Origin: Ensifer adhaerens
GTDB taxonomy: Bacteria; Pseudomonadota; Alphaproteobacteria; Rhizobiales; Rhizobiaceae
DNA length: 64,000 nucleotides
Assembly (NCBI RefSeq): GCF_002007205.1
Contig: NZ_LAZS01000012.1
Location: 496,001-560,000, forward strand
Reading direction: 5' to 3'
Shown: positions 40,480 through 53,743 of the stretch, piece by piece
Position numbering within the stretch: the stretch's first letter is position 1
How the letters are laid out: each line of letters starts with the position of its first letter
The notes under the pieces: generated by a model
Seen by the model: only the letters and a program-made list of their open reading frames with translations
Databases searched by the model: none
Told to the model about the DNA's origin: nothing
Position numbers and translations under genes: made by a program

Positions 40480-40504
40480 GGAACCATTGTCGTCGATGAG
40501 TGTT
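40480..40504 (+). promoter_or_regulatory. GSR promoter for the NepR-motif/receiver pair
   Basis: GGAAC (40480-40484), 16 bp, TGTT (40501-40504), 32 bp before ATG 40537. Confidence 0.62.
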
Positions 40505-40536: not shown

Positions 40537-40998
40537 ATGAGACCCGCGCGCGTTATTGCGGTTCTGGCGATCTTGATACCGCCTCCTGTTACAGTGCAGC
40601 GCCGCTGCGGACCGACCCTGCCGGCCGGGGATCGACGGTTTGCGCGGTTCGCCCTGTGCCTTGCTACGGAAGGAGAACCGGTTGGCTTCCACCTGCACAA
40701 GGACTATCCTTTCAGTTGTCCCGCCGTCGAAGGCGACGGGAAACGCGCGACGAATGGACGGGCTGGAACGAGGATGGCTTCGGACAAGAAGACGAGCGAC
40801 GACGAGAGTTTGATGGCGCCCCATGCCACGGGCGATGTCGTTGGTGCCGAAATCGACGATATACCGGATCGTCTGCTGATACTCGCAAACAGGCTGCAAA
40901 GAGCGCTCGGTACGCGCCGAGTTGCCGAGACTGCCGAACGCCCAGCGCTTCAGGACGAATCGAGGCGACCAGTGAAGCGGACAGGGGATGAGAAATGA
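40537..40998 (+). CDS. Protein with NepR-like motif (possible anti-sigma factor)
   Basis: From ATG 40537 (GGGAG seven bases upstream, promoter 32 bp upstream) the frame encodes 153 residues. The first 79 are Arg/Pro-rich and unlike any family. The last 74 could be made alone from ATG 40774. They contain DDIPDRLLILANRLQRAL, which resembles the helical PDRLLDLLxRLD motif with which NepR anti-sigma factors clasp EcfG. The gene is translationally coupled (ATGA overlap) to a receiver protein with a sigma-like tail, the type of partner that binds NepR. Anti-sigma function is inferred from motif and context only. Confidence 0.5.
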   Translation: MRPARVIAVLAILIPPPVTVQRRCGPTLPAGDRRFARFALCLATEGEPVGFHLHKDYPFSCPAVEGDGKRATNGRAGTRMASDKKTSDDESLMAPHATGDVVGAEIDDIPDRLLILANRLQRALGTRRVAETAERPALQDESRRPVKRTGDEK

Positions 40999-41609
40999 CG
41001 CGCGGCCTGCAGCATCTGCGGGTATTGGTTGCCGAGGATGAATTCATCGTCGCAAATGACATTGCGCTGTTGCTGGAGGAGGCGGGCGCGACCATCATCG
41101 GCCCCACGCCTACTGTTCGAGAGACGCTGAAGAGCCTTTCCATCGCGGATGATATCCAAGTCGCTGTTCTCGACATCAATCTGAACGGCGAGCTTATTTA
41201 TCCGGTCGCCGACGAGCTTGCGCGCCGTCAGGTACCGCTCATATTCTTCAGCGGATACGATTCTCTAAGTCTTCCAGAGCGTTTCAGTTCTGCCGCGCGC
41301 CTCAGCAAATGTCTTGGTTCCGCGGAGCTTGTGAGCGCCGTCTTTGAACAACACCTCCAGAATCTGTCTATTCTGACGCCGGTCGGTTCGCCCTTCCATG
41401 AACAGAGTATTGTCGACCTCGTTCCGGGGCTTCGTCTGAGGGCACGGAGGCTGATGGGGGATATGGTAGCTGCCGACGGTCTGGTCGAGCGCACGCTTGA
41501 GCGGGCCATTGTTCTGGCACCCCTCAGGTGCAGGTCACAATCGCTTGCGGAATGGCTCCACGCATTGATGGAAGTCATCCATAGCGAAAGCCCGTACGGT
41601 CCAAATTGA
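40995..41609 (+). CDS. Response regulator: N-terminal receiver plus C-terminal ECF sigma-region-2-like domain
   Basis: A 204-residue protein. Residues 8-120 are a receiver: acidic pocket E14-D15, phosphoacceptor D60 in AVLDINLNGE, and FFSGYD at 84-89, the FATGUY-type motif of stress receivers. Residues 138-198 (SIVDLVPGLRLRARRLMGDM, then DGLVERTLERAI) align with region 2 of the sigma factor at 43627-44145 (QVVDLIPALRAFARTFVSSS, DDLVQETLFRAL). PhyR anti-anti-sigma factors carry sigma2-sigma4 first and the receiver last; here the order is reversed and sigma4 is absent. It overlaps the upstream NepR-motif gene. Confidence 0.75.
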   Translation: MTRGLQHLRVLVAEDEFIVANDIALLLEEAGATIIGPTPTVRETLKSLSIADDIQVAVLDINLNGELIYPVADELARRQVPLIFFSGYDSLSLPERFSSAARLSKCLGSAELVSAVFEQHLQNLSILTPVGSPFHEQSIVDLVPGLRLRARRLMGDMVAADGLVERTLERAIVLAPLRCRSQSLAEWLHALMEVIHSESPYGPN

Positions 41610-42084: not shown

Positions 42085-42157
<73 letters not shown>

Positions 42158-42511: not shown

Positions 42512-42949
42512 ATGCGCATTGCCGAAATCATGACCAGAGACGTGCATGTAGCGAGCCCGGACGACCTGGTTCAGGACATCGCACGAGAAATGGCTGACAC
42601 CGATATCGGGTTCCTGCCCGTGGGCCAAAACGACCGCCTTGTCGGCATGATAACGGACCGCGACATCGTGGTACGTTGCGTGGCGGCCGGTCGTGACGGG
42701 AAAACGCGCTTGGGCGACATCATGACGACCGATGTTAGGTACTGCTTCGACGATGATGAATTGTCGGAGGTCGCGCGCCACATGGGAGACGAGCAGATCA
42801 GGCGCATGCCGGTCGTCAACCACGACAAGCGCCTGGTCGGCGTCGTGTCTCTCGCAGACGCGGCGCGGGGAGACTCGGACCTTGCCGGCGTTGGGCTCAA
42901 AGGAGTGACGATGCCAGGCGGCGCCCACAATCAAAGGCCGCCGCAGTGA
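42512..42949 (+). CDS. Tandem CBS-domain protein
   Basis: A 145-residue protein made of two CBS domains: IMTRDVHVASPDDLVQDIAR with GFLPVGQNDRLVGMITDRDI, then IMTTDVRYCFDDDELSEVAR with RRMPVVNHDKRLVGVVSLAD. Such pairs bind adenosine nucleotides and sense energy state. Stand-alone CBS proteins are frequent in stress regulons. It overlaps the following HD-domain gene, so the two are co-translated and could interact. Confidence 0.92.
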   Translation: MRIAEIMTRDVHVASPDDLVQDIAREMADTDIGFLPVGQNDRLVGMITDRDIVVRCVAAGRDGKTRLGDIMTTDVRYCFDDDELSEVARHMGDEQIRRMPVVNHDKRLVGVVSLADAARGDSDLAGVGLKGVTMPGGAHNQRPPQ

Positions 42950-43626: not shown

Positions 43627-44145
43627 TCAGGGAACTGGAACTCCGCTCATTTGGCAGGCAAGCTCGTCGCGCGCTCGGCTGAGCCGGCTTTTGATCGTGC
43701 CCACCGCGCAGTCGCAGATGTCGGCGGCCTCCTTGTAGCTCAGGCCATATCCGGCAACCAGGATGAGCACCTCCCGGTGATCGGCTGCCAGAGTGTCGAG
43801 CGCTCTGCGAAGTTCGGCGTTCAAGACGCACCAATCCTGCGGTGCCGGCATCGGGATCGGCAGCTCGGCGCAGTCAATTGTGCCGGGAGACTCGCGCCGA
43901 CGCAGCTTGTACTGCGTGCGGAAAGCATTGTGCATGATGGTGAAGAGCCAGGACTTGAGATTGGTTCCGGCCCGGAAACCATCAATCCCGCGCAATGCCC
44001 GAAAGAGCGTTTCTTGCACCAGATCGTCGACTTCGAAGCTCGACGAAACGAATGTGCGGGCGAAGGCGCGAAGCGCTGGAATAAGGTCAACAACCTGGGT
44101 CTCCAGCGGCGGAGACCGCTGGTCGGTTTCGTGAACAGAAGGCAT
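43627..44145 (-). CDS. ECF sigma factor, candidate EcfG/RpoE2-type general stress sigma
   Basis: A 172-residue two-domain sigma factor. Region 2: VDLIPALRAFARTFVSSSFE, VDDLVQETLFRALRG, GTNLKSWLFTIMHNAFRTQY. Region 4: ALDTLAADHREVLILVAGYG, LSYKEAADICDCAVGTIKSR. There is no fused extension. Its own GGAAC promoter, the many GGAAC promoters around it and the two HWE kinases upstream suggest it belongs to the general stress group, though paralogues of the main EcfG are common in rhizobia. Confidence 0.88.
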   Translation of the reverse strand: MPSVHETDQRSPPLETQVVDLIPALRAFARTFVSSSFEVDDLVQETLFRALRGIDGFRAGTNLKSWLFTIMHNAFRTQYKLRRRESPGTIDCAELPIPMPAPQDWCVLNAELRRALDTLAADHREVLILVAGYGLSYKEAADICDCAVGTIKSRLSRARDELACQMSGVPVP

Positions 44146-44342: not shown

Positions 44343-46376
44343 CTACAGCCGGTCTTTGGGAACCGTGAGGCGAATGACAAGTCCGTCCGGGTGCCACTGA
44401 CGGAGGATCTTTCCACCGAATTGCCTTTCGATGGTCAGCTTGGCGAGCTTGGTGCCGAAGCCTTCGGCTTCGGTTTCCGACACCGACGGGCCGCCACGTT
44501 CGGTCCAGATCAGCTCCAGCGCCCCTCCTTGATCGATACACTCAAGATCGAGATAGCCAGTGTCTGTCGACAGGGCGCCATATTTGGCAGCGTTGGTGGC
44601 GAACTCGTGCACGACGAGCGAAAAGCCTGTAATAGCAGCGCGGGAGATGTCCAGATCGCTTCCTCGGGTTGTTATCCGGCGCAGGCCCACGCCGGTCTCG
44701 CCGTCATACGGAGACAGCAAGGTCGCAAGCAGCGGCTGCAGGCTGGCCCGGCCATCACCGGGGCCGTTTGTACTCTGCGTCGGCAAGGTCAGCACATGGG
44801 CCCGTGCCAGTGACCCCAATCGTGCGACAACGGCCGTTGCGAGTTCATCGACCGATGCCGCTGACTTGGCGCTCAGCGACACCACGCTGCTGGATACCAT
44901 GAACAGGTTCTTGACCCGGTGCGCCATCTCCTGGATCAACAGGTCCTTCTGTTGTTCGGCCTGTTTGCGCTCGCTGATGTCGCGCGCAATCTTCGAGGCG
45001 CCGATAACCACGCCGGCGTTGTCACGGATCGGCGAAATTCTGAGCGAGATCGGTATCAGCACTCCGTCCTTGCGCTGGCGCAGCGTTTCAAAATGATCGA
45101 CTCGGTTGCCGGCGCGTACTTGCTCCAGGAATTCCAGTTCCTCGCCCTGGCGATCGCTGGGGATCAAAAGCGTGACAGGCCTTCCAACGGCTTCCTCGAC
45201 CGTATAGCCGTAGAGCCGCTCGGCTCCGGCGTTCCAACTGGTGATGACGCCGTCCAGGTCCATCGAAAGAATTGCGTCCTCCGACGACTCGACGATCGCA
45301 GCAAGCTGATGAGCCGCATGCTCGGCCTTGCGGCGGACGGTGACCTCGTGCGCGGCTGCCTTGAGCAAATGGGCGTTGTCGATCGCGATTGCGGCATGGG
45401 CGGCGATCGAGGTCACTGCGTCCTCCGCGTCGGCGGCAAAGATGCCGGGCTGATCGTGACCGAAGAACAACCCACCATGTACCTCGCCCGAGCGCGAAAC
45501 CACCGGAACTGCCAGATAGCTGACAACTGGCAGATGTCCTTCCGGCATGCCGAAATGCGGCGCCGATCTGCCATAGCGTGGGTCGGCCCGGATATCATTC
45601 GAGCGCACAACGCCCAAACCGCGGAACGTCGGGTCGAACACGGCGGTGTTGCGGGGCAGTTGGAACTTCTCGAAAGCCGCGCGGGACGCCCCCGAAAGAG
45701 CGTAAAGGGTGTATCGCTCGCCTTGCGGGTCAACGAGATTATAGAAGAAGGCCCCAAATTTAGCACCGGCGATTTCGGTTGCCGCGTCCGTCACCGCCTG
45801 GACGATATGGTCAAGGTCGAGACTGCTCGCGATCGTCTTGGCAATCCGATCGACCGCCTCCAGCCGGCGTTCCGCCGCCTTGCGCTGCGAGATGTCGAGA
45901 ATGCTGACATAGGCGCGTTCGTGGTGTGCGCCCTCGAACGTGATCGTGAATACCACGTCCAGTCGCCGCCCTCGAAGGGTGCGCAGAACGGTATCGCCCC
46001 CGAAACGCCGTCGTCCCTCCCAGATCGTTACCAGCTCCTCAAGGAAAATCGGTGCCGTCTCGGGGAGGAAGACGTTTGAGAGCGAGCGCAGCAACTCGTC
46101 TTTCTCGGCGGCCTCGAATAGTTCGACCGTGAACGGGTTGACGTCGACTATACGCACGCTCGCAATCGCTTCGTCCAAACGGTCGGGATATGTCGCCAGG
46201 TAGGCGCGCAGATCCTCGACGCCCTCTGATCGAAACGCGTGCAGGAGCTCGGAGACGCCGGAAAAATCCTGCTCCCACACCGCTACACCGGCATACTCAA
46301 AGATATCGCGGAACCTCGTTTCGCTCTCGCGGAAGTCCTGTTCAGATGCCTTGGGATCGCTGATTTCAACCAGCAT
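44343..46376 (-). CDS. PAS-GAF-PAS sensor histidine kinase of the HWE family
   Basis: A 677-residue soluble kinase. Residues about 15-170 form a PAS domain, 170-345 a GAF domain (RIAKTIASSLDLDHIVQAVT, AAHAAIAIDNAHLLKAAAHE), and 355-475 a second PAS (IVESSEDAILSMDLDGVITS). The kinase core has the phosphoacceptor His486 in EMAHRVKN, the N-box VVHEFATNAAKYGAL and WTERGG, which defines HWE kinases. HWE/HisKA2 kinases feed PhyR-type regulators of the stress response. No GSR promoter directly precedes it; it follows the hybrid kinase gene after 144 bp. Confidence 0.9.
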   Translation of the reverse strand: MLVEISDPKASEQDFRESETRFRDIFEYAGVAVWEQDFSGVSELLHAFRSEGVEDLRAYLATYPDRLDEAIASVRIVDVNPFTVELFEAAEKDELLRSLSNVFLPETAPIFLEELVTIWEGRRRFGGDTVLRTLRGRRLDVVFTITFEGAHHERAYVSILDISQRKAAERRLEAVDRIAKTIASSLDLDHIVQAVTDAATEIAGAKFGAFFYNLVDPQGERYTLYALSGASRAAFEKFQLPRNTAVFDPTFRGLGVVRSNDIRADPRYGRSAPHFGMPEGHLPVVSYLAVPVVSRSGEVHGGLFFGHDQPGIFAADAEDAVTSIAAHAAIAIDNAHLLKAAAHEVTVRRKAEHAAHQLAAIVESSEDAILSMDLDGVITSWNAGAERLYGYTVEEAVGRPVTLLIPSDRQGEELEFLEQVRAGNRVDHFETLRQRKDGVLIPISLRISPIRDNAGVVIGASKIARDISERKQAEQQKDLLIQEMAHRVKNLFMVSSSVVSLSAKSAASVDELATAVVARLGSLARAHVLTLPTQSTNGPGDGRASLQPLLATLLSPYDGETGVGLRRITTRGSDLDISRAAITGFSLVVHEFATNAAKYGALSTDTGYLDLECIDQGGALELIWTERGGPSVSETEAEGFGTKLAKLTIERQFGGKILRQWHPDGLVIRLTVPKDRL

Positions 46377-46520: not shown

Positions 46521-49500
46521 TCAATGACGCAGTCGGTGGACCGCATTGGTCCTGGTAACAAGCAGCGCTGCGGCTTCGATCAATTGCTGCGAGGTAAACG
46601 GCTTCATGAGCAGTCTCGCATCGGTAAAGCCCGCAGGCAGCGCTTCACGGCCGTAGCCCGTGACGAAGACGAAAGGAATCTTCTTCTCGGTCAGGGCGGC
46701 TGCAATCTCCTCGACCGATTGTCCGTGCAAATTGGCGTCAACCATCGCCCCATCCAGTTGTTCCTGGTCGATGATGCGCAAGGCATCCCCTATCGTCGAT
46801 GCCGGCCCTGCGACTTGCGCATGCTGTTCCTCAAGTACCGCGGCGATCTCGAAGGCAATCAGGGGCTCATCCTCGATAACCGCGAATGTTTTGCCATCGA
46901 TGCTCGCAACAGAGGACGCGGCAGTCTGTGGAGAGCCATTCGAAACAGGGTCTGCAAATTCTGCTGCGTTGCTCGCATCAGGTTCCAGGGGAAGGACGAT
47001 CTCCCAACGCATGCCCTCGGCCTCGACGGAGCGATGCGCGCGGCCCCCTCCGCTGCTTAGAACCTGTTCGATCAGTTTGGTCCCGAATCCCTGGGCGACG
47101 GGTGATCTTATGGATGGACCGCCGCGTTCCCGCCAATCAAGGCAAAGCGTACCATCGTTCAGCGTCCAATCGATCGAGACCGTGCCGGCGCGCGTCGACA
47201 GCGAACCATATTTGACGGCATTGGTGCCGAGCTCGTGCAACATCATGGCCATGTGCTGCGCCGTTTGCGGATCGAGGCTGATTGGCGGGCCGGATGCTAC
47301 CACCCGGTCATCGTCGACCGTCCCGGGCAGCAATTGGTCATGAATGATATCGTCAAGATCCGCGCCCTCCCAGCCAGTGCGGGTCAGAAGCGAGTGCATT
47401 CTAGACATCGATTGCAGGCGCCCGCTAAAGCTCTCGGCAAAGGTGGCAGGGTCCTTGGCAGAACGCAGCGTTTGTCGCGCGATGGCCTGAACCGACGCAA
47501 GCATGTTCTTGACCCGGTGGCTGAGTTCGCTCAGCAGGAGCTGCTGTGTCTCTTCTGAGCGCTTGCGATCGGTAATGTCTCGCGCGGCGCCAAACCACTC
47601 CACAACTTCTCCGTCGCTACCCAGAAGCGGTATGGCCCGCGAATGGGTCCAGCCAAGACTTCCGTCAACGAGAATAACCCGGTGGTCTACCTCGAACACG
47701 GCCTTGTTCCGAATGGCATCCTCGATGGTCGTCAGGATATGCGCCTGATCGGCGGCAGGGATGTATCTCTCGAGCCAACTGTCGCTTGGATCCTCAGTGT
47801 CAGCGACGAAATCCTTGCCTTGCAGATACCGCATCTCGCGCCAATCGGGGCTCATGCGATAGACGATGTCAGAGCTCGCTGTGACGAAGGCCCGGAACCG
47901 CTCTTCGCTTGCGCGCAAACGCTCTGCCGCTTTGGTTCGGTGGTGAGACATTTTGAGATGCGCCTCAACACGCGCCAGCAACTCGCGCGCGCTGAAGGGC
48001 TTGATCATGTAGTCGTCGGCGCCTGCCTGCATGCCCTCGATTCGGCTTTCCTCACCGGCGCGCGCTGACAGAACGATGATCGGAATGGTGGTTGTCTGCG
48101 GCTCCGAACGCAGCCTTTTGAGCAATTCCAGTCCATCAAACCCCGGCATCATGACGTCCGTGAGGATGAGGTCTGGTCTCTGAGACGCGATCGCGGCGAG
48201 CGCGGCCTCCCCATGGCCGACTACCGTAAGATCGTACTGGGCACCAAGCAGGCGACGCAGGTAGTCGCGCATGTCGGCGTTGTCATCCACCACCAACAGG
48301 GAATGGCGGCGGCCGTTGCGGGCTTGCGTCAGGTGGGCGGCTGGCTCGACCTCGGGCAGTTCGGCGTCCCGGCGGGAATCGGGTAGCCACCGAAGGGCCT
48401 CTTCCACAAAGGGAGAAATGCCAATTGCGGTTGACGGGCGACTTTCACTTGTTCCGGTTTGATCGACTGCCAGGTGGCCACTTCCTCTTGGGATGCTGAC
48501 CCTTAGGGTCGTGCCTTTGCCCAGATGGCTGTCGGCCGAAACCGTCCCACCGTGAAGTTTTACCAGCTCCTGAACGAAAGCCAGTCCGATGCCGGATCCT
48601 TCCCGACTGCGTCCTTCGGCGCCTTCGACGCGATGGAACCGCTCGAAAAGGCGGGGCATTTCTTCGGCCGGGATACCGATACCCGTATCGCGGACAGCAA
48701 GCACGAAGTTGTCTGCATTGGCGGTCAACTTGACGGCGATCTCTCCTTCCAATGTGAACTTGAATGCATTGGAGAGGAGATTGAGCACGATCTTTTCCCA
48801 CATCTGGCGATCAACATGGGCCGCTTCGGGAAGCGGTGGTGTATCGACGGTCAAACGCAAGCCGGCTTTTTCCGTTGCAGAGCGAAATGCACTCGCAAGT
48901 TCCGCCGTTGCCGCGGCAAGATCTGTCGGCTCAAAATGCGCCTGCAGCCGACCCGCCTCGATGCGTGAGAATTCAAGCAGCGTGTTCACCAGCTTAAGCA
49001 GGCGAAGGGAGTTGCGATGCGCGATAAGGAGCCGTTCGCGGTCGTCGGGTGGCTGGTTACCACGGGCCAGGAGGTCTTCGATGTGGCCGAGCATCAGCGT
49101 CAGCGGCGTGCGAAACTCATGACTGACATTCGAAAAGAACACGGTCTTTGCTCGGTCGATTTCCGCAAGAGCCTCTGCGCGCTTACGCTCTTCTTCATAG
49201 GACTGAGCATTCGTTATCGCACTGGCGACCTGTGCTTTCATGAGCTGCAAGAAATCATAGTAATGTTCGTCAAGTTTTAGCCGTGGATTGATGCCGGCGA
49301 CTAAGTAACCGGCAGCTTCAGGCGCATTGGCAGCGGCAAGCGGCAGCACGATTGCGGTGTCCGGCAGATCGAGGGGGCGCTCGCCTGCCAATGCCTGGAA
49401 ACGCGAGCCCAGATCATTGACGACGCGTGGTGCCAACGTCATGTCAAAGTGCCAGCTTTTGCCGCGATCGGCTTGCCCCAAAGAGACCGTTTGCGGGCAC

Positions 49501-50219
49501 AGTGCGTCGTCATGCACCAAACCGGCCACCCCTGAAAGCCGTGCTCGTTTGCGATCGGGGTCGAGAAGATAGAGAAGCGCGAAGGGGACATCCCTTTCGT
49601 GTTTCGCCAGTGTCTCGGCTGCGATCATGCAAGCCTCTGCCGGCGTCCGCGCATCGCCTGAGCGAGAGGCCAGATCGCGAAGGACAACGATCCGGCGTTC
49701 TCCAATGACCTTTTCGGTAATCTCGGTCACGGTGGCGAGGACGCCGCCGATGCCGTTCTCCGCAACGTCGTCAGGAACGGGGCTGTAGGCGATGGTGAAA
49801 TGGGTCTCTTCGAGAAAACCGTGCCGGTTGATCTCGAGCTCGATGTCGTCGTTCCAGGTCGGAGGGCCGCCATTGAAGGGGGTATCGATCAACGGTTTCA
49901 GAATATGCCAGATCTCGCTCCAGCATTCGCTGACCGGTTTGCCGAGTGCCCAGGAGTGCTTGGCTCCGAGCACCGGCCGATAGGCATCATTATAGATTGA
50001 AACATATTGCGGCCCCCACCACAGCAACAGCGGAAAGCGGTTTACCAACAGGAAGCGGATCATAATCCGCAGCGTCGGGGACCATTGCTCCATGGCCCCA
50101 AGTGCTGTCCGCGACCAGTCGAAGTCCTGAATCAGCATTTCCATCTCGCCATGGCCGACAGGCCATGACGCTTCGATGGGCAGCAGGTCCCCGTCGGACG
50201 TGTTTGTGGCGTCTGACAT
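46521..50219 (-). CDS. Hybrid sensor kinase with both HisKA and HWE kinase modules and two receivers
   Basis: A 1232-residue multi-domain protein. Order: PAS-like sensor (1-160), GAF-like (185-345), HisKA (FFSNVSHEFRTPLTLML) and HATPase (LNLLSNAFKF), receiver 1 (LLVVDDNADMRDYLRRLL, LILTDVMMPGFDG), PAS, HWE kinase (ELSHRVKNMLASVQAIARQT, MMLHELGTNAVKYGSLS, WRERGGPSI), receiver 2 (FAVIEDEPLIAFEIAAVLEE, VFVTGYGREALP, FATGUY type). Two autophosphorylation systems in one chain are unusual and imply an internal relay. An exact GSR promoter lies 36 bp upstream, suggesting positive feedback. Confidence 0.9.
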   Translation of the reverse strand: MSDATNTSDGDLLPIEASWPVGHGEMEMLIQDFDWSRTALGAMEQWSPTLRIMIRFLLVNRFPLLLWWGPQYVSIYNDAYRPVLGAKHSWALGKPVSECWSEIWHILKPLIDTPFNGGPPTWNDDIELEINRHGFLEETHFTIAYSPVPDDVAENGIGGVLATVTEITEKVIGERRIVVLRDLASRSGDARTPAEACMIAAETLAKHERDVPFALLYLLDPDRKRARLSGVAGLVHDDALCPQTVSLGQADRGKSWHFDMTLAPRVVNDLGSRFQALAGERPLDLPDTAIVLPLAAANAPEAAGYLVAGINPRLKLDEHYYDFLQLMKAQVASAITNAQSYEEERKRAEALAEIDRAKTVFFSNVSHEFRTPLTLMLGHIEDLLARGNQPPDDRERLLIAHRNSLRLLKLVNTLLEFSRIEAGRLQAHFEPTDLAAATAELASAFRSATEKAGLRLTVDTPPLPEAAHVDRQMWEKIVLNLLSNAFKFTLEGEIAVKLTANADNFVLAVRDTGIGIPAEEMPRLFERFHRVEGAEGRSREGSGIGLAFVQELVKLHGGTVSADSHLGKGTTLRVSIPRGSGHLAVDQTGTSESRPSTAIGISPFVEEALRWLPDSRRDAELPEVEPAAHLTQARNGRRHSLLVVDDNADMRDYLRRLLGAQYDLTVVGHGEAALAAIASQRPDLILTDVMMPGFDGLELLKRLRSEPQTTTIPIIVLSARAGEESRIEGMQAGADDYMIKPFSARELLARVEAHLKMSHHRTKAAERLRASEERFRAFVTASSDIVYRMSPDWREMRYLQGKDFVADTEDPSDSWLERYIPAADQAHILTTIEDAIRNKAVFEVDHRVILVDGSLGWTHSRAIPLLGSDGEVVEWFGAARDITDRKRSEETQQLLLSELSHRVKNMLASVQAIARQTLRSAKDPATFAESFSGRLQSMSRMHSLLTRTGWEGADLDDIIHDQLLPGTVDDDRVVASGPPISLDPQTAQHMAMMLHELGTNAVKYGSLSTRAGTVSIDWTLNDGTLCLDWRERGGPSIRSPVAQGFGTKLIEQVLSSGGGRAHRSVEAEGMRWEIVLPLEPDASNAAEFADPVSNGSPQTAASSVASIDGKTFAVIEDEPLIAFEIAAVLEEQHAQVAGPASTIGDALRIIDQEQLDGAMVDANLHGQSVEEIAAALTEKKIPFVFVTGYGREALPAGFTDARLLMKPFTSQQLIEAAALLVTRTNAVHRLRH

Positions 50220-52112: not shown

Positions 52113-52820
52113 ATGACACTTGAGCCTCAAGTCGTTGAAATCCTGAAGGGCGTGTCCACTGCGACGCTCACGACCGTTCTCCTGAAAAAAGGACTTCGCA
52201 ACGTCTGGATCCGTGGCACGAAGCCACTGAAGCCCGGTCAGGGACGCGTTGTCGGCAAGGCATTCACGCTGCGCTTCATCCCCGCTCGCGAGGACCTCGC
52301 CACGCCAGCGAGTTGGGCATCGCCGATCTCCACCCGGGCGGCGATCGAAGCGATGCCGGAGGGGTGCGTTGCCGTTGCCGACGCGATGGGCGTCAACGAT
52401 GCCGGCATCTTCGGCGACATCCTGTGCGCCCGGATGGCGAAACTGAAAGTCGCCGGCCTCGTCACCGACGGCATGATGCGGGACGCCGAAGGCGTGCTGG
52501 CGAGCGGCATGAAGGTGTGGTGCAATGGCATCGCGGCCCCGCCTTCCGTCGCAGGCCTGACCTTCGTCGGATGGCAAGAGCCGATCAATTGCGGCGGCGT
52601 CGCCGTTCTGCCTGATGATATTGTCGTGGTCGACGACGACGGTGCAGTCCTTGTCCCGGCGGCTTTTCTCGGTGAGGTCCTCGCCGAGGCGCCCGAGCAG
52701 GAGCGCATGGAGGCCTGGATCATGAGCGAAGTGGACCGGGGGGTGCCGCTTCCCGGTCTTTACCCGATGAACGCAGAAACGAAGGCCCGCTACGAGGCCT
52801 GGAAGGAAAGCCAGAAATGA
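52113..52820 (+). CDS. RraA-family protein (HMG/CHA-aldolase-like)
   Basis: A 235-residue protein. VSTATLTTVLLKKGLRNVWI is the RraA N-terminal helix. VAVADAMGVNDAGIFGDILC and GLVTDGMMRDAEGVLASGM contain the Arg-Asp pair typical of 4-hydroxy-4-methyl-2-oxoglutarate aldolases and 4-carboxy-4-hydroxy-2-oxoadipate aldolases. VVVDDDGAVLVP closes the fold. With the neighbouring SDR and DapA-type aldolase/dehydratase it suggests breakdown of a branched or hydroxylated keto acid. It overlaps the next gene by 4 bases. Confidence 0.87.
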   Translation: MTLEPQVVEILKGVSTATLTTVLLKKGLRNVWIRGTKPLKPGQGRVVGKAFTLRFIPAREDLATPASWASPISTRAAIEAMPEGCVAVADAMGVNDAGIFGDILCARMAKLKVAGLVTDGMMRDAEGVLASGMKVWCNGIAAPPSVAGLTFVGWQEPINCGGVAVLPDDIVVVDDDGAVLVPAAFLGEVLAEAPEQERMEAWIMSEVDRGVPLPGLYPMNAETKARYEAWKESQK

Positions 52821-53743
52821 CGTTCAGCACGCAATCCAAGGGCGTCTACGCCATCGCGACGACACCGTTTCACGATGACGGCTCGATCGACTTCACTTCG
52901 CTCGACCGGCTGACGGATTTTTACGAGGAGAGTGGTTGCACCGGCGTCACGATCCTCGGGATCATGGGTGAGGCCCCGAAGCTCGAACCGGAGGAAAGCC
53001 GGGCTATCGTCAAGCGTGTGGTCTCACGATCCAAGATCCCGGTCATCGTCGGGGTCTCCGCGCCGGGCTTTGCCAGCATGCGCTCGTTGGCGCGTGTGTC
53101 GATGGACATGGGTGCTGCCGGCGTGATGATCGCTCCGCCACCTGCCCTGCGCGCGGATGATCAGATCATCAACTATTTCGCCGGCGCGGTCGAAGCCGTC
53201 GGCGAAGATGTGCCGTGGGTTCTGCAGGATTACCCGCTGACCCTTACGGTGGTCATGACTCCAGGCGTCATCGCGAAGATCGTCACCAACCACCCGTCCT
53301 GCCTGATGTTGAAGCACGAGGACTGGCCCGGCCTGGAGAAGATCTCGAAGCTCAGGGCCATGCAGAAGACGGGAGAACTTCGCGACTTTTCCATCCTCTG
53401 CGGCAACGGCGGCCTTTTCCTCGACTTCGAGCCGGAACGAGGTGCTGACGGCGCCATGACCGGCTACGGCTTCCCGGACATGCTCACCGAACTGAATGGG
53501 CTGTTTGCCGCCGGGAAGAGGGATGAGGCGCACGATCTCTTCGACGCGCACCTGCCGTTGATCCGTTACGAGCAACAGCTCGGGATCGGCCTTGCCATTC
53601 GCAAGCACGTTCTGAAGCGTCGCGGGATCATCACTTCCGACGCACAACGCAAGCCGGCCCAGATGCTGAGCCCGACAGCGCGCGCGGAAGTGGACTATCT
53701 GCTTGCCCGCCTCGCGAGATACGACAAGCGCGCGGCTCTCTAG
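52817..53743 (+). CDS. Dihydrodipicolinate synthase (DapA)/N-acetylneuraminate lyase-family enzyme
   Basis: A 308-residue TIM-barrel lyase or dehydratase. GVYAIATTPFHDDGSIDFTS is the usual start. GCTGVTILGIMGEAPKLEPE matches the family substrate loop with GE in place of the more common GE/GT pair. QDYPL has the catalytic tyrosine and LMLKHEDWPG the Schiff-base lysine. It is not the biosynthetic DapA, given the operon. It may be a keto-deoxy sugar-acid aldolase or dehydratase. Confidence 0.88.
   Translation: MTFSTQSKGVYAIATTPFHDDGSIDFTSLDRLTDFYEESGCTGVTILGIMGEAPKLEPEESRAIVKRVVSRSKIPVIVGVSAPGFASMRSLARVSMDMGAAGVMIAPPPALRADDQIINYFAGAVEAVGEDVPWVLQDYPLTLTVVMTPGVIAKIVTNHPSCLMLKHEDWPGLEKISKLRAMQKTGELRDFSILCGNGGLFLDFEPERGADGAMTGYGFPDMLTELNGLFAAGKRDEAHDLFDAHLPLIRYEQQLGIGLAIRKHVLKRRGIITSDAQRKPAQMLSPTARAEVDYLLARLARYDKRAAL

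Follow-up and report, generated by a model that had tools for sequence, protein, structure and literature searches.

A receiver-sigma2 response regulator and its NepR-like neighbour in Ensifer adhaerens: a candidate partner switch of reduced form

We describe a pair of adjacent genes of Ensifer adhaerens which we read, with a probability of roughly 0.6, as a reduced and divergent partner switch of the PhyR-NepR-EcfG type. The stretch of DNA analysed, 64,000 nucleotides in length, is called the window below. On its forward strand, a gene at 40774..40998 encodes a small NepR-like protein of 74 aa with the core DDIPDRLLILANRLQRAL, and a second gene at 40995..41609 encodes a response regulator of 204 aa, in which a receiver is followed by a sigma70 region-2-like domain. 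The start of the second gene overlaps the stop of the first via ATGA at 40995-40998, an overlap already reported in the original prediction for this DNA and found to be genuine. That prediction had suggested a variant anti-sigma/anti-anti-sigma switch. The idea is supported, since both homologies hold in profile tests, relatives keep the pair, and the sigma singled out earlier is a recurrent neighbour of such loci. The window pair is one instance of a family running across several alphaproteobacterial families.

Architecture of the response regulator

The receiver domain spans residues 8-120 (41016..41354, forward strand), with the phospho-acceptor D60 encoded at 41172-41174. In the window protein Response_reg matches residues 10-100 with E 6e-5, under the Pfam cut-off. 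The closest PDB relatives of the receiver are FATGUY receivers, namely 2lpm (E 7.6e-16), which we take to be Sma0114, and SdrG (5ieb, E 1.1e-8), and on these matches the FATGUY-type receiver proposed at residues 8-120 stands. E14, D15, D60 and K105 are invariant in 20/20 divergent family sequences, and at position 86, 12 of the 20 have T and 8 have S. Thus a phospho-Asp and a FATGUY-class receiver, as looked for in a PhyR-like protein, are both present in the family (D60 and K105 in 20/20, T/S at 86). The window protein deviates from the FATGUY/KP pattern by S86, within the motif FFSGYD, and by C106 after the conserved Lys. When the receiver was searched in its own genome, the second-best match after itself was the C-terminal receiver of the kinase at 46521-50219 (E 1.5e-13). 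This resemblance to a hybrid HisKA/HWE kinase points to a possible phospho-relay.

What is the domain behind the receiver? The sigma70 region-2-like domain covers residues 139-198 (41409..41588, forward strand). PF22029 (PhyR_sigma2) matches residues 141-192 of the window protein with E 1.6e-4 and 22.0 bits, under the 27-bit cut-off. Among 17 scanned relatives the cut-off is exceeded in six (P0022, P0027, P0029 and those of E. canadensis, K. vulgare and Roseivivax), nine score below it, and the two from Tistrella and genome G092 have no Pfam match at E<=0.01. The window ECF is matched with 43.5 bits (E 4e-14) by a profile built on the C-termini of the family itself, in agreement with the earlier alignment of the tail with region 2 of this ECF 2 kb away. 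The same profile gives 36.7-53.4 bits to ECFs near such genes, 25.5 to the genome's canonical EcfG, and 14.6 and 10.9 to its two PhyRs. Searched against PDB, the 20-row family profile matches sigma chains at positions 126-198 (5uxx_A E 2.9e-7, 1h3l_A E 7e-7, SigH 5.5e-4). The AlphaFold2 model places three predicted helices at 139-153, 157-177 and 184-198, with a block pLDDT of 83-91 over residues 141-200; the whole-protein model has pLDDT 77.8 and pTM 0.52, and the C-terminal model alone (74 aa) pLDDT 71.7. The best 50 of 1607 Foldseek matches to the whole model are nearly all receivers or receiver-containing proteins, PhyR 9by5 ranking 43rd with 125 aligned columns; sigma factors are absent from these 50, and the tail is not informed by this search. 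No sigma4 family matches the protein at E<=10, and only six residues follow the last helix. PhyR is arranged as sigma2-sigma4-receiver, whereas here the receiver (8-120) precedes sigma2 (139-198) and sigma4 is missing, so that the reversed and truncated order given in the original prediction agrees with the domain search.

Is the tail a working sigma domain? Residues were compared in 37 receiver-sigma2, 34 near-ECF, 20 EcfG and 16 PhyR rows, including a few duplicates. The sigma2 scaffold is mostly common to mimics and sigmas (P144, L146, R147, A150, R151, D161, L163, V164, W187, L188). Three positions of region 2, D162, Q165 and N194, are presumably in contact with RNA polymerase and DNA. D162 is found in 100% of the 34 near-ECF rows but is R in 72% of the 37 receiver rows; Q165 is likewise 100% in near ECFs but E in 97% of receiver-sigma2 rows; N194, again 100% in near ECFs, is mixed in receiver-sigma2 rows. 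In PhyR the same three positions are lost, with other letters. A sigma2 domain with lost RNAP/DNA residues, the other feature of a PhyR-like protein, is therefore found in the family, the window protein itself scoring under the PF22029 cut-off. Judged from these alignments, the C-terminus is a sigma2 mimic rather than a working sigma. The receiver-sigma2 proteins also share a short conserved end (window 41594-41606), where the last residue is N/H/S in 35/37 rows and the penultimate one L in 21/37.

The small NepR-like gene

The start of the small gene had been placed at 40537, within an open frame from 40480. This start is doubtful and was rejected. In L006-L009, four related loci, the protein is conserved from the ATG equivalent to 40774, with the pattern (V/I)DD(V/I)PDRLLILANRLQ(K/R)AL; the upstream extension is broken in frame in L006 and unrelated by eye in L008 and L009. 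The start was therefore shifted, and the small gene probably begins at 40774. The segment 40537-40773 of the window encodes an in-frame hydrophobic peptide, MRPARVIAVLAILIPPP, which is similar in L007 and not, by eye, in L006, L008 and L009; it may be a leader peptide or chance. The ATGA overlap occurs in the window and in L009, and gaps of about 19, 50 and 9 nt are seen in L006, L007 and L008.

The 74-aa window protein has no Pfam hit, and no NepR was found for it in Pfam/NCBIfam scans, so its link to NepR has to be drawn through its family. Of the NepR-type helix predicted in the upstream product, the part that stands is the one based on family profiles. An eight-protein profile matches 65 of 394 Rhizobiaceae genomes at E<=0.01, with at most 15 candidates per genome scored; the weak end of these matches may be chance. 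The better-scoring distant members show ..LL.EIE.E.VPDRLLELA..LQ.AL..R, a NepR pattern. When the whole family was aligned with NepR by hhalign, the score was 33.1 (E 4e-6), whereas 200 column shuffles gave no more than 18.3, and the 15 wide rows alone scored 39.4 in an alignment over 39 columns. The ten Ensifer-type rows alone align weakly (score 22.2, probability 22.7%) and to NepR columns 44-66 only, which argues that the Ensifer form keeps the second helix; by these alignments, the second NepR helix is the only one recognisable in the Ensifer small protein.

The NepR model PF18557 is touched by 4/10 scanned family members (E 0.12, 0.0011, 0.003 and 0.0019), all below the cut-off. The K. vulgare small protein is the fullest NepR match of those scanned (E 4e-4, profile positions 2-27 of 35), and the best PF18557 score among scanned relatives is 20.4 bits versus a cut-off of 25.7. 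In PDB searches with the small family the NepR chains of 5uxx and 4qic come first, but with E 0.26-1. A canonical NepR profile run on 38 loci gave ten matches at E<=1, which comprise nine candidate small genes and an unrelated window ORF (52771-52875); the window small protein was not found by it. A profile from members not beside such receivers does find the window small gene, at E 5.5e-7. Taken by their profiles, the small proteins are a NepR-like family unclaimed by curated models in our scans.

Linkage and distribution

How tight is the association of the two genes? A linkage profile was built from 13 small proteins not beside a receiver-sigma2 gene, though originally found with seeds that were. 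On the 12,320 ORFs of 38 receiver-sigma2 loci it gave 25 matches at E<=1, all of which are candidate small genes; 20 of them lie no more than 1.2 kb from the receiver gene, the other five at 3.5-5.4 kb. Note that 19.9% of the ORFs lie within 1.2 kb, which gives a binomial p of 2e-10 for 20/25. With one locus that is present twice (L008 = L214) counted once, 19/24 are near (p 7e-10), and at E<=0.01 there are 17 near among 22. The weakest three matches are those of Paracoccus (E 0.057), K. vulgare (0.12) and Tistrella (0.33). Counted by genome, the small gene is present in 17/26 receiver-sigma2 genomes versus 48/368 others (p 7e-9, inflated by seed genomes), and without the seven seed genomes in 10/19 versus 48/368 (p 9e-5); phylogeny is ignored in both tests. 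At 13 of the 38 loci no small gene was found in the stretch examined (L195-L198, L202, L205, L207-L211, L218, L221), so the pair is not obligatory. Conversely, 48 of the 65 small-gene genomes have no detected receiver-sigma2 protein, which means that those genomes must rely on some other antagonist.

At least 20 of the 38 stretches contain an ECF like the window's (E<=1e-20), and at least 14 contain an HWE kinase; both counts are lower bounds because the stretches are only 3.6 to 64 kb long, and the neighbouring ECFs, at 111-382 bits, may in part belong to other ECF groups. For example in G092 (L212), sigma, small gene, receiver-sigma2 and HWE kinase stand in line on one strand. Sigma, small and receiver-sigma2 genes occur together in varied orientations in K. 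vulgare (L215), Shinella (L220), G157 (L204), G160 (L203) and G408 (L229), and in Ensifer the sigma lies 1.5-5.6 kb from the pair on the other strand. Among 20 small-gene-centred stretches, the small gene is tail to tail with such an ECF in five (L177, L184, L186, L187, L192). A small-family member of S. meliloti (L216 3561-3719) is also tail to tail with an RpoE5-like sigma; no receiver-sigma2 gene was found in that 6.5 kb stretch, where the sigma itself is the only match to the profile. In G105 (L194 8642-10114) the small gene is divergent from a plain FATGUY receiver and an ECF, with no sigma2 tail. The tail may thus be an addition in part of a wider system, and the L194 cluster may be the ancestral form of the module.

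The window protein has 37 matches, of which 29 reach beyond the receiver (P0001-P0029; P0028 partly) and eight cover the receiver only. By eye, P0028, an Ensifer-type relative, seems to have a frameshift within the receiver and a truncated sigma2. A Rhizobiaceae search at E<=1e-25 matched at least 78 of 394 genomes, mostly in the receiver only. Matches reaching the end of sigma2 were found in at least 26 of the 394 genomes, under eight genus codes, and with the small genes linked to them this bears out the conservation that the original prediction had called for. In a class-wide search such matches appear in at least 4 of 385 genomes (the own genome, G426, G653, G408). In both genome searches no more than eight candidates per genome were scored. 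Further cases were found by tblastn on plasmids of Mesorhizobium, Shinella, Martelella, Tistrella, Paracoccus, Roseivivax and Ketogulonicigenium. More distant matches in L013, L026 and L035, with 23-29% identity, extend up to residues 179-203.

Sigma factor and kinases of the window

The proposed target is an RpoE5-like ECF sigma at 43627..44145 on the reverse strand, in which sigma2 and sigma4 are both present (Sigma70_r2 and Sigma70_r4_2 matches). By tblastn it is 71.5-72.1% identical to sigmas on large plasmids of S. meliloti/kummerowiae, the S. meliloti one being on pSymB, and 49% identical to the R. etli homologue. This close kinship to a classified member puts it in ECF15 (RpoE5/EcfG2-like). 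The S. meliloti relative is not named in its record; we infer from its replicon, its neighbours and PMC6180224 that it is rpoE5. RpoE5 is classed as ECF15, with little known of its control, and an unannotated RsiA-like ORF is described beside S. meliloti rpoE5, opposite the neighbour SMb21687 (PMC6180224). This ORF and the small family of L216 are very probably the same family. A NepR-like ORF beside S. meliloti rpoE5 is therefore already published (PMC6180224), but the Ensifer gene has a different position, ahead of the receiver gene. For R. etli ecfG2, PMC3892343 reports that no anti-sigma or response-regulator gene lies nearby, and we found no small-family match in the NXC12 locus L225. A CBS-domain gene lies near the RpoE5-like sigma both in the window (42512-42949) and on S. 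meliloti pSymB (L216 1319-1795).

Two kinases are encoded on the reverse strand of the window. One, at 44343..46376, is an HWE histidine kinase with GAF and PAS (HWE_HK 43.1 bits) and a candidate phospho-donor; the other, at 46521..50219, is the hybrid kinase mentioned above, with HisKA, HWE_HK (94.3 bits) and two receiver stretches. The genome also encodes two NepR and two canonical PhyR proteins above the cut-off, so that the module would work alongside the usual general stress response.

Proposed mechanism and alternatives

How could the pair work? Starting from the domain content, the homology, the conserved linkage, the lost sigma-typical residues and the kinases present, all observed above, we propose a series of binding and phosphotransfer steps and a sigma target by analogy with PhyR-NepR-EcfG. 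At rest, the small one-helix NepR relative would keep the RpoE5-like ECF15 sigma (43627-44145) inactive. Under stress an HWE kinase would lead to phosphorylation of the receiver at D60. Phosphorylation would expose the C-terminal sigma2 look-alike, which has kept its scaffold and would no longer be able to serve RNA polymerase; the exposed look-alike would capture the small protein, and the sigma factor would be set free. The pair may have a decoy or competition role, as suggested in the original prediction, and the simplest candidate for the partner sigma is the ECF 2 kb away, instead of PhyR's targets only. In the related case of CnrY, two helices embrace sigma2 and sigma4 of CnrH, and the structure superimposes on PhyR-NepR (PMC4598750). 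If the second NepR helix is what touches sigma2, mimic and inhibitor would have lost matching halves.

Could the pair instead tune the canonical general stress response? The receiver-sigma2 protein might compete with PhyR for the two NepRs, or the small protein might occupy PhyR as an anti-anti-anti-sigma. We think this unlikely, though it has real points in its favour: the genome holds the two NepR and two canonical PhyR genes to be tuned, 13/38 receiver loci have no small gene nearby, and M. extorquens has two NepR paralogues that bind PhyR, one of them with an EcfG-type promoter, and for which no sigma binding was found (PMC4814048). However, the small gene is linked to receiver-sigma2 and often to ECFs like the window's, and the mimic's sigma2 profile scores these near ECFs (36.7-53.4 bits) well above EcfG (25.5) and the PhyRs (14.6 and 10.9). 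A split-sigma or blocking role (cf. SigO-RsoA), in which the sigma2 domain would target RNA polymerase or the sigma itself and the small protein would be a separate regulator, is improbable. Split sigma2/sigma4 proteins do exist (PMC8103513) and the sigma2 scaffold is well kept here, but the residues that never vary in near ECFs (D162, Q165, N194) are lost from most of the family or from all of it, as they are from PhyR, and the linkage of a NepR-like gene would be left unexplained.

We give slightly less credit still to the pair being a decaying remnant of a duplicated stress locus, now without function. The patchy spread (at least 26/394 Rhizobiaceae genomes), the degenerate FATGUY motif and the apparent frameshift of P0028 would fit such decay, but the phospho-site residues are invariant in 20/20 divergent sequences and the architecture is kept in at least six named genera beyond Ensifer. 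Finally, an ANTAR-like three-helix RNA-binding tail, as in a receiver-ANTAR antiterminator, is hardly credible, since the top Foldseek match of the whole model, Rv1626, presumably a receiver with an ANTAR domain, aligns with an rmsd of 13.4 over 200 columns, and no ANTAR family matches the protein at E<=10 while sigma2 families and sigma chains do.

Origin and relation to known systems

Did the partner switch proposed here arise from PhyR or apart from it? In the sigma2 tree the tails form one clade (100/96) and the PhyR sigma2 domains another (100/99), and the branch that joins the tails to ECFs like the window's is weak (60/72). A common sigma2 clade with PhyR is not rejected by the AU test (p 0.475). 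In the receiver tree, these receivers are mixed with single-domain FATGUY receivers, while PhyR receivers form a separate 100/100 clade; a joint receiver clade with PhyR is not rejected either (p 0.139). Judging from the scores, an independent origin may be the likelier one. A larger scenario, which we offer tentatively and with some doubt, is a second, independently evolved sigma-mimic switch, in which a FATGUY receiver took only region 2 of an RpoE5-like sigma and the partner shrank to the single matching NepR helix, so that a half-pair of one sigma domain and one anti-sigma helix would control orphan ECF15 sigmas in parallel to PhyR-NepR. An origin of the mimic separate from that of PhyR would mean that the same trick was invented twice.

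The receiver-sigma2 protein resembles PhyR in several respects: its receiver is of the FATGUY class, the sigma look-alike joined to it lacks the three near-invariant sigma residues that PhyR lacks too, and its gene is often linked to genes for a NepR-type protein, an HWE kinase and an ECF sigma. It differs, besides its domain order, in a tail that is nearer by score to ECFs like the window's. The small proteins share with NepR (PF18557) their small, soluble nature and a helix of the E.[IV]P(D/E)R..(D/E)L...L type. They differ in a first helix that appears weak, and is not recognisable in Ensifer, in scores below the PF18557 cut-off in all scans, and in an LQ.AL..R extension at the end. The ATGA overlap of the window small gene with the next gene also has a parallel in Sphingopyxis, where nepR2 overlaps ecfG1 by 4 bp (PMC7083833). 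Sma0114, SdrG and MrrA are FATGUY single-domain receivers and, unlike the receiver-sigma2 protein, have no output domain; SdrG and MrrA are phosphorylated by HWE/HisKA2 kinases (PMC5964349). The proposed target belongs to the class of non-canonical EcfG/RpoE5 (ECF15) sigmas, such as R. etli EcfG2. No description of a receiver-sigma2 protein or of a minimal NepR was found in the titles and abstract openings of the open-licence PMC papers that our searches listed.

In 2013, two or more EcfG-type sigmas were present in half of the completed alphaproteobacterial genomes, and there was no satisfactory explanation for the additional, non-canonical copies (PMC3892343). Some of these extra sigmas now gain a candidate anti-sigma family, mostly hypothetical or unannotated in the records seen, and a subset of them gains a dedicated candidate antagonist under phospho-control. 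The recurring pairs in other bacterial families may help explain the control of 'orphan' stress sigmas. Sigma mimicry cut to one domain and one helix would also be a minimal system for receiver gating of a sigma look-alike.

Candidate promoters

A GGAAC-type stress promoter had been predicted in front of the pair. The site is present at 40480..40504 on the forward strand as GGAAC-N16-TGTT, found by pattern scan as a candidate EcfG-type promoter; its -10 is a relaxed match only, of a kind seen in 6.5% of random stretches, and it lies 294 nt before ATG 40774. With the overlapping genes behind this relaxed site, the stress response may itself feed the switch. The small gene of L006 has a strict GGAAC-N16-CGTT upstream, that of L007 a relaxed match. 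Over all loci, a relaxed GGAAC-N15-18-[CGT]GTT within about 300 bp upstream was found for 11/39 small genes (random 6.5%), 7/45 receiver genes (5.0%) and 11/33 ECF genes (8.0%), and a strict GGAAC-N16/17-CGTT for 3/39 (random 1.4%), 5/45 (1.2%) and 10/33 (2.0%), respectively; the 45 receiver genes include eight that are receiver-only, and some sites are counted for both genes of a pair. The same scan found no GGAAC-type site upstream of the window ECF. A long CT/TC dinucleotide repeat was also observed in the window at about 42085-42154.
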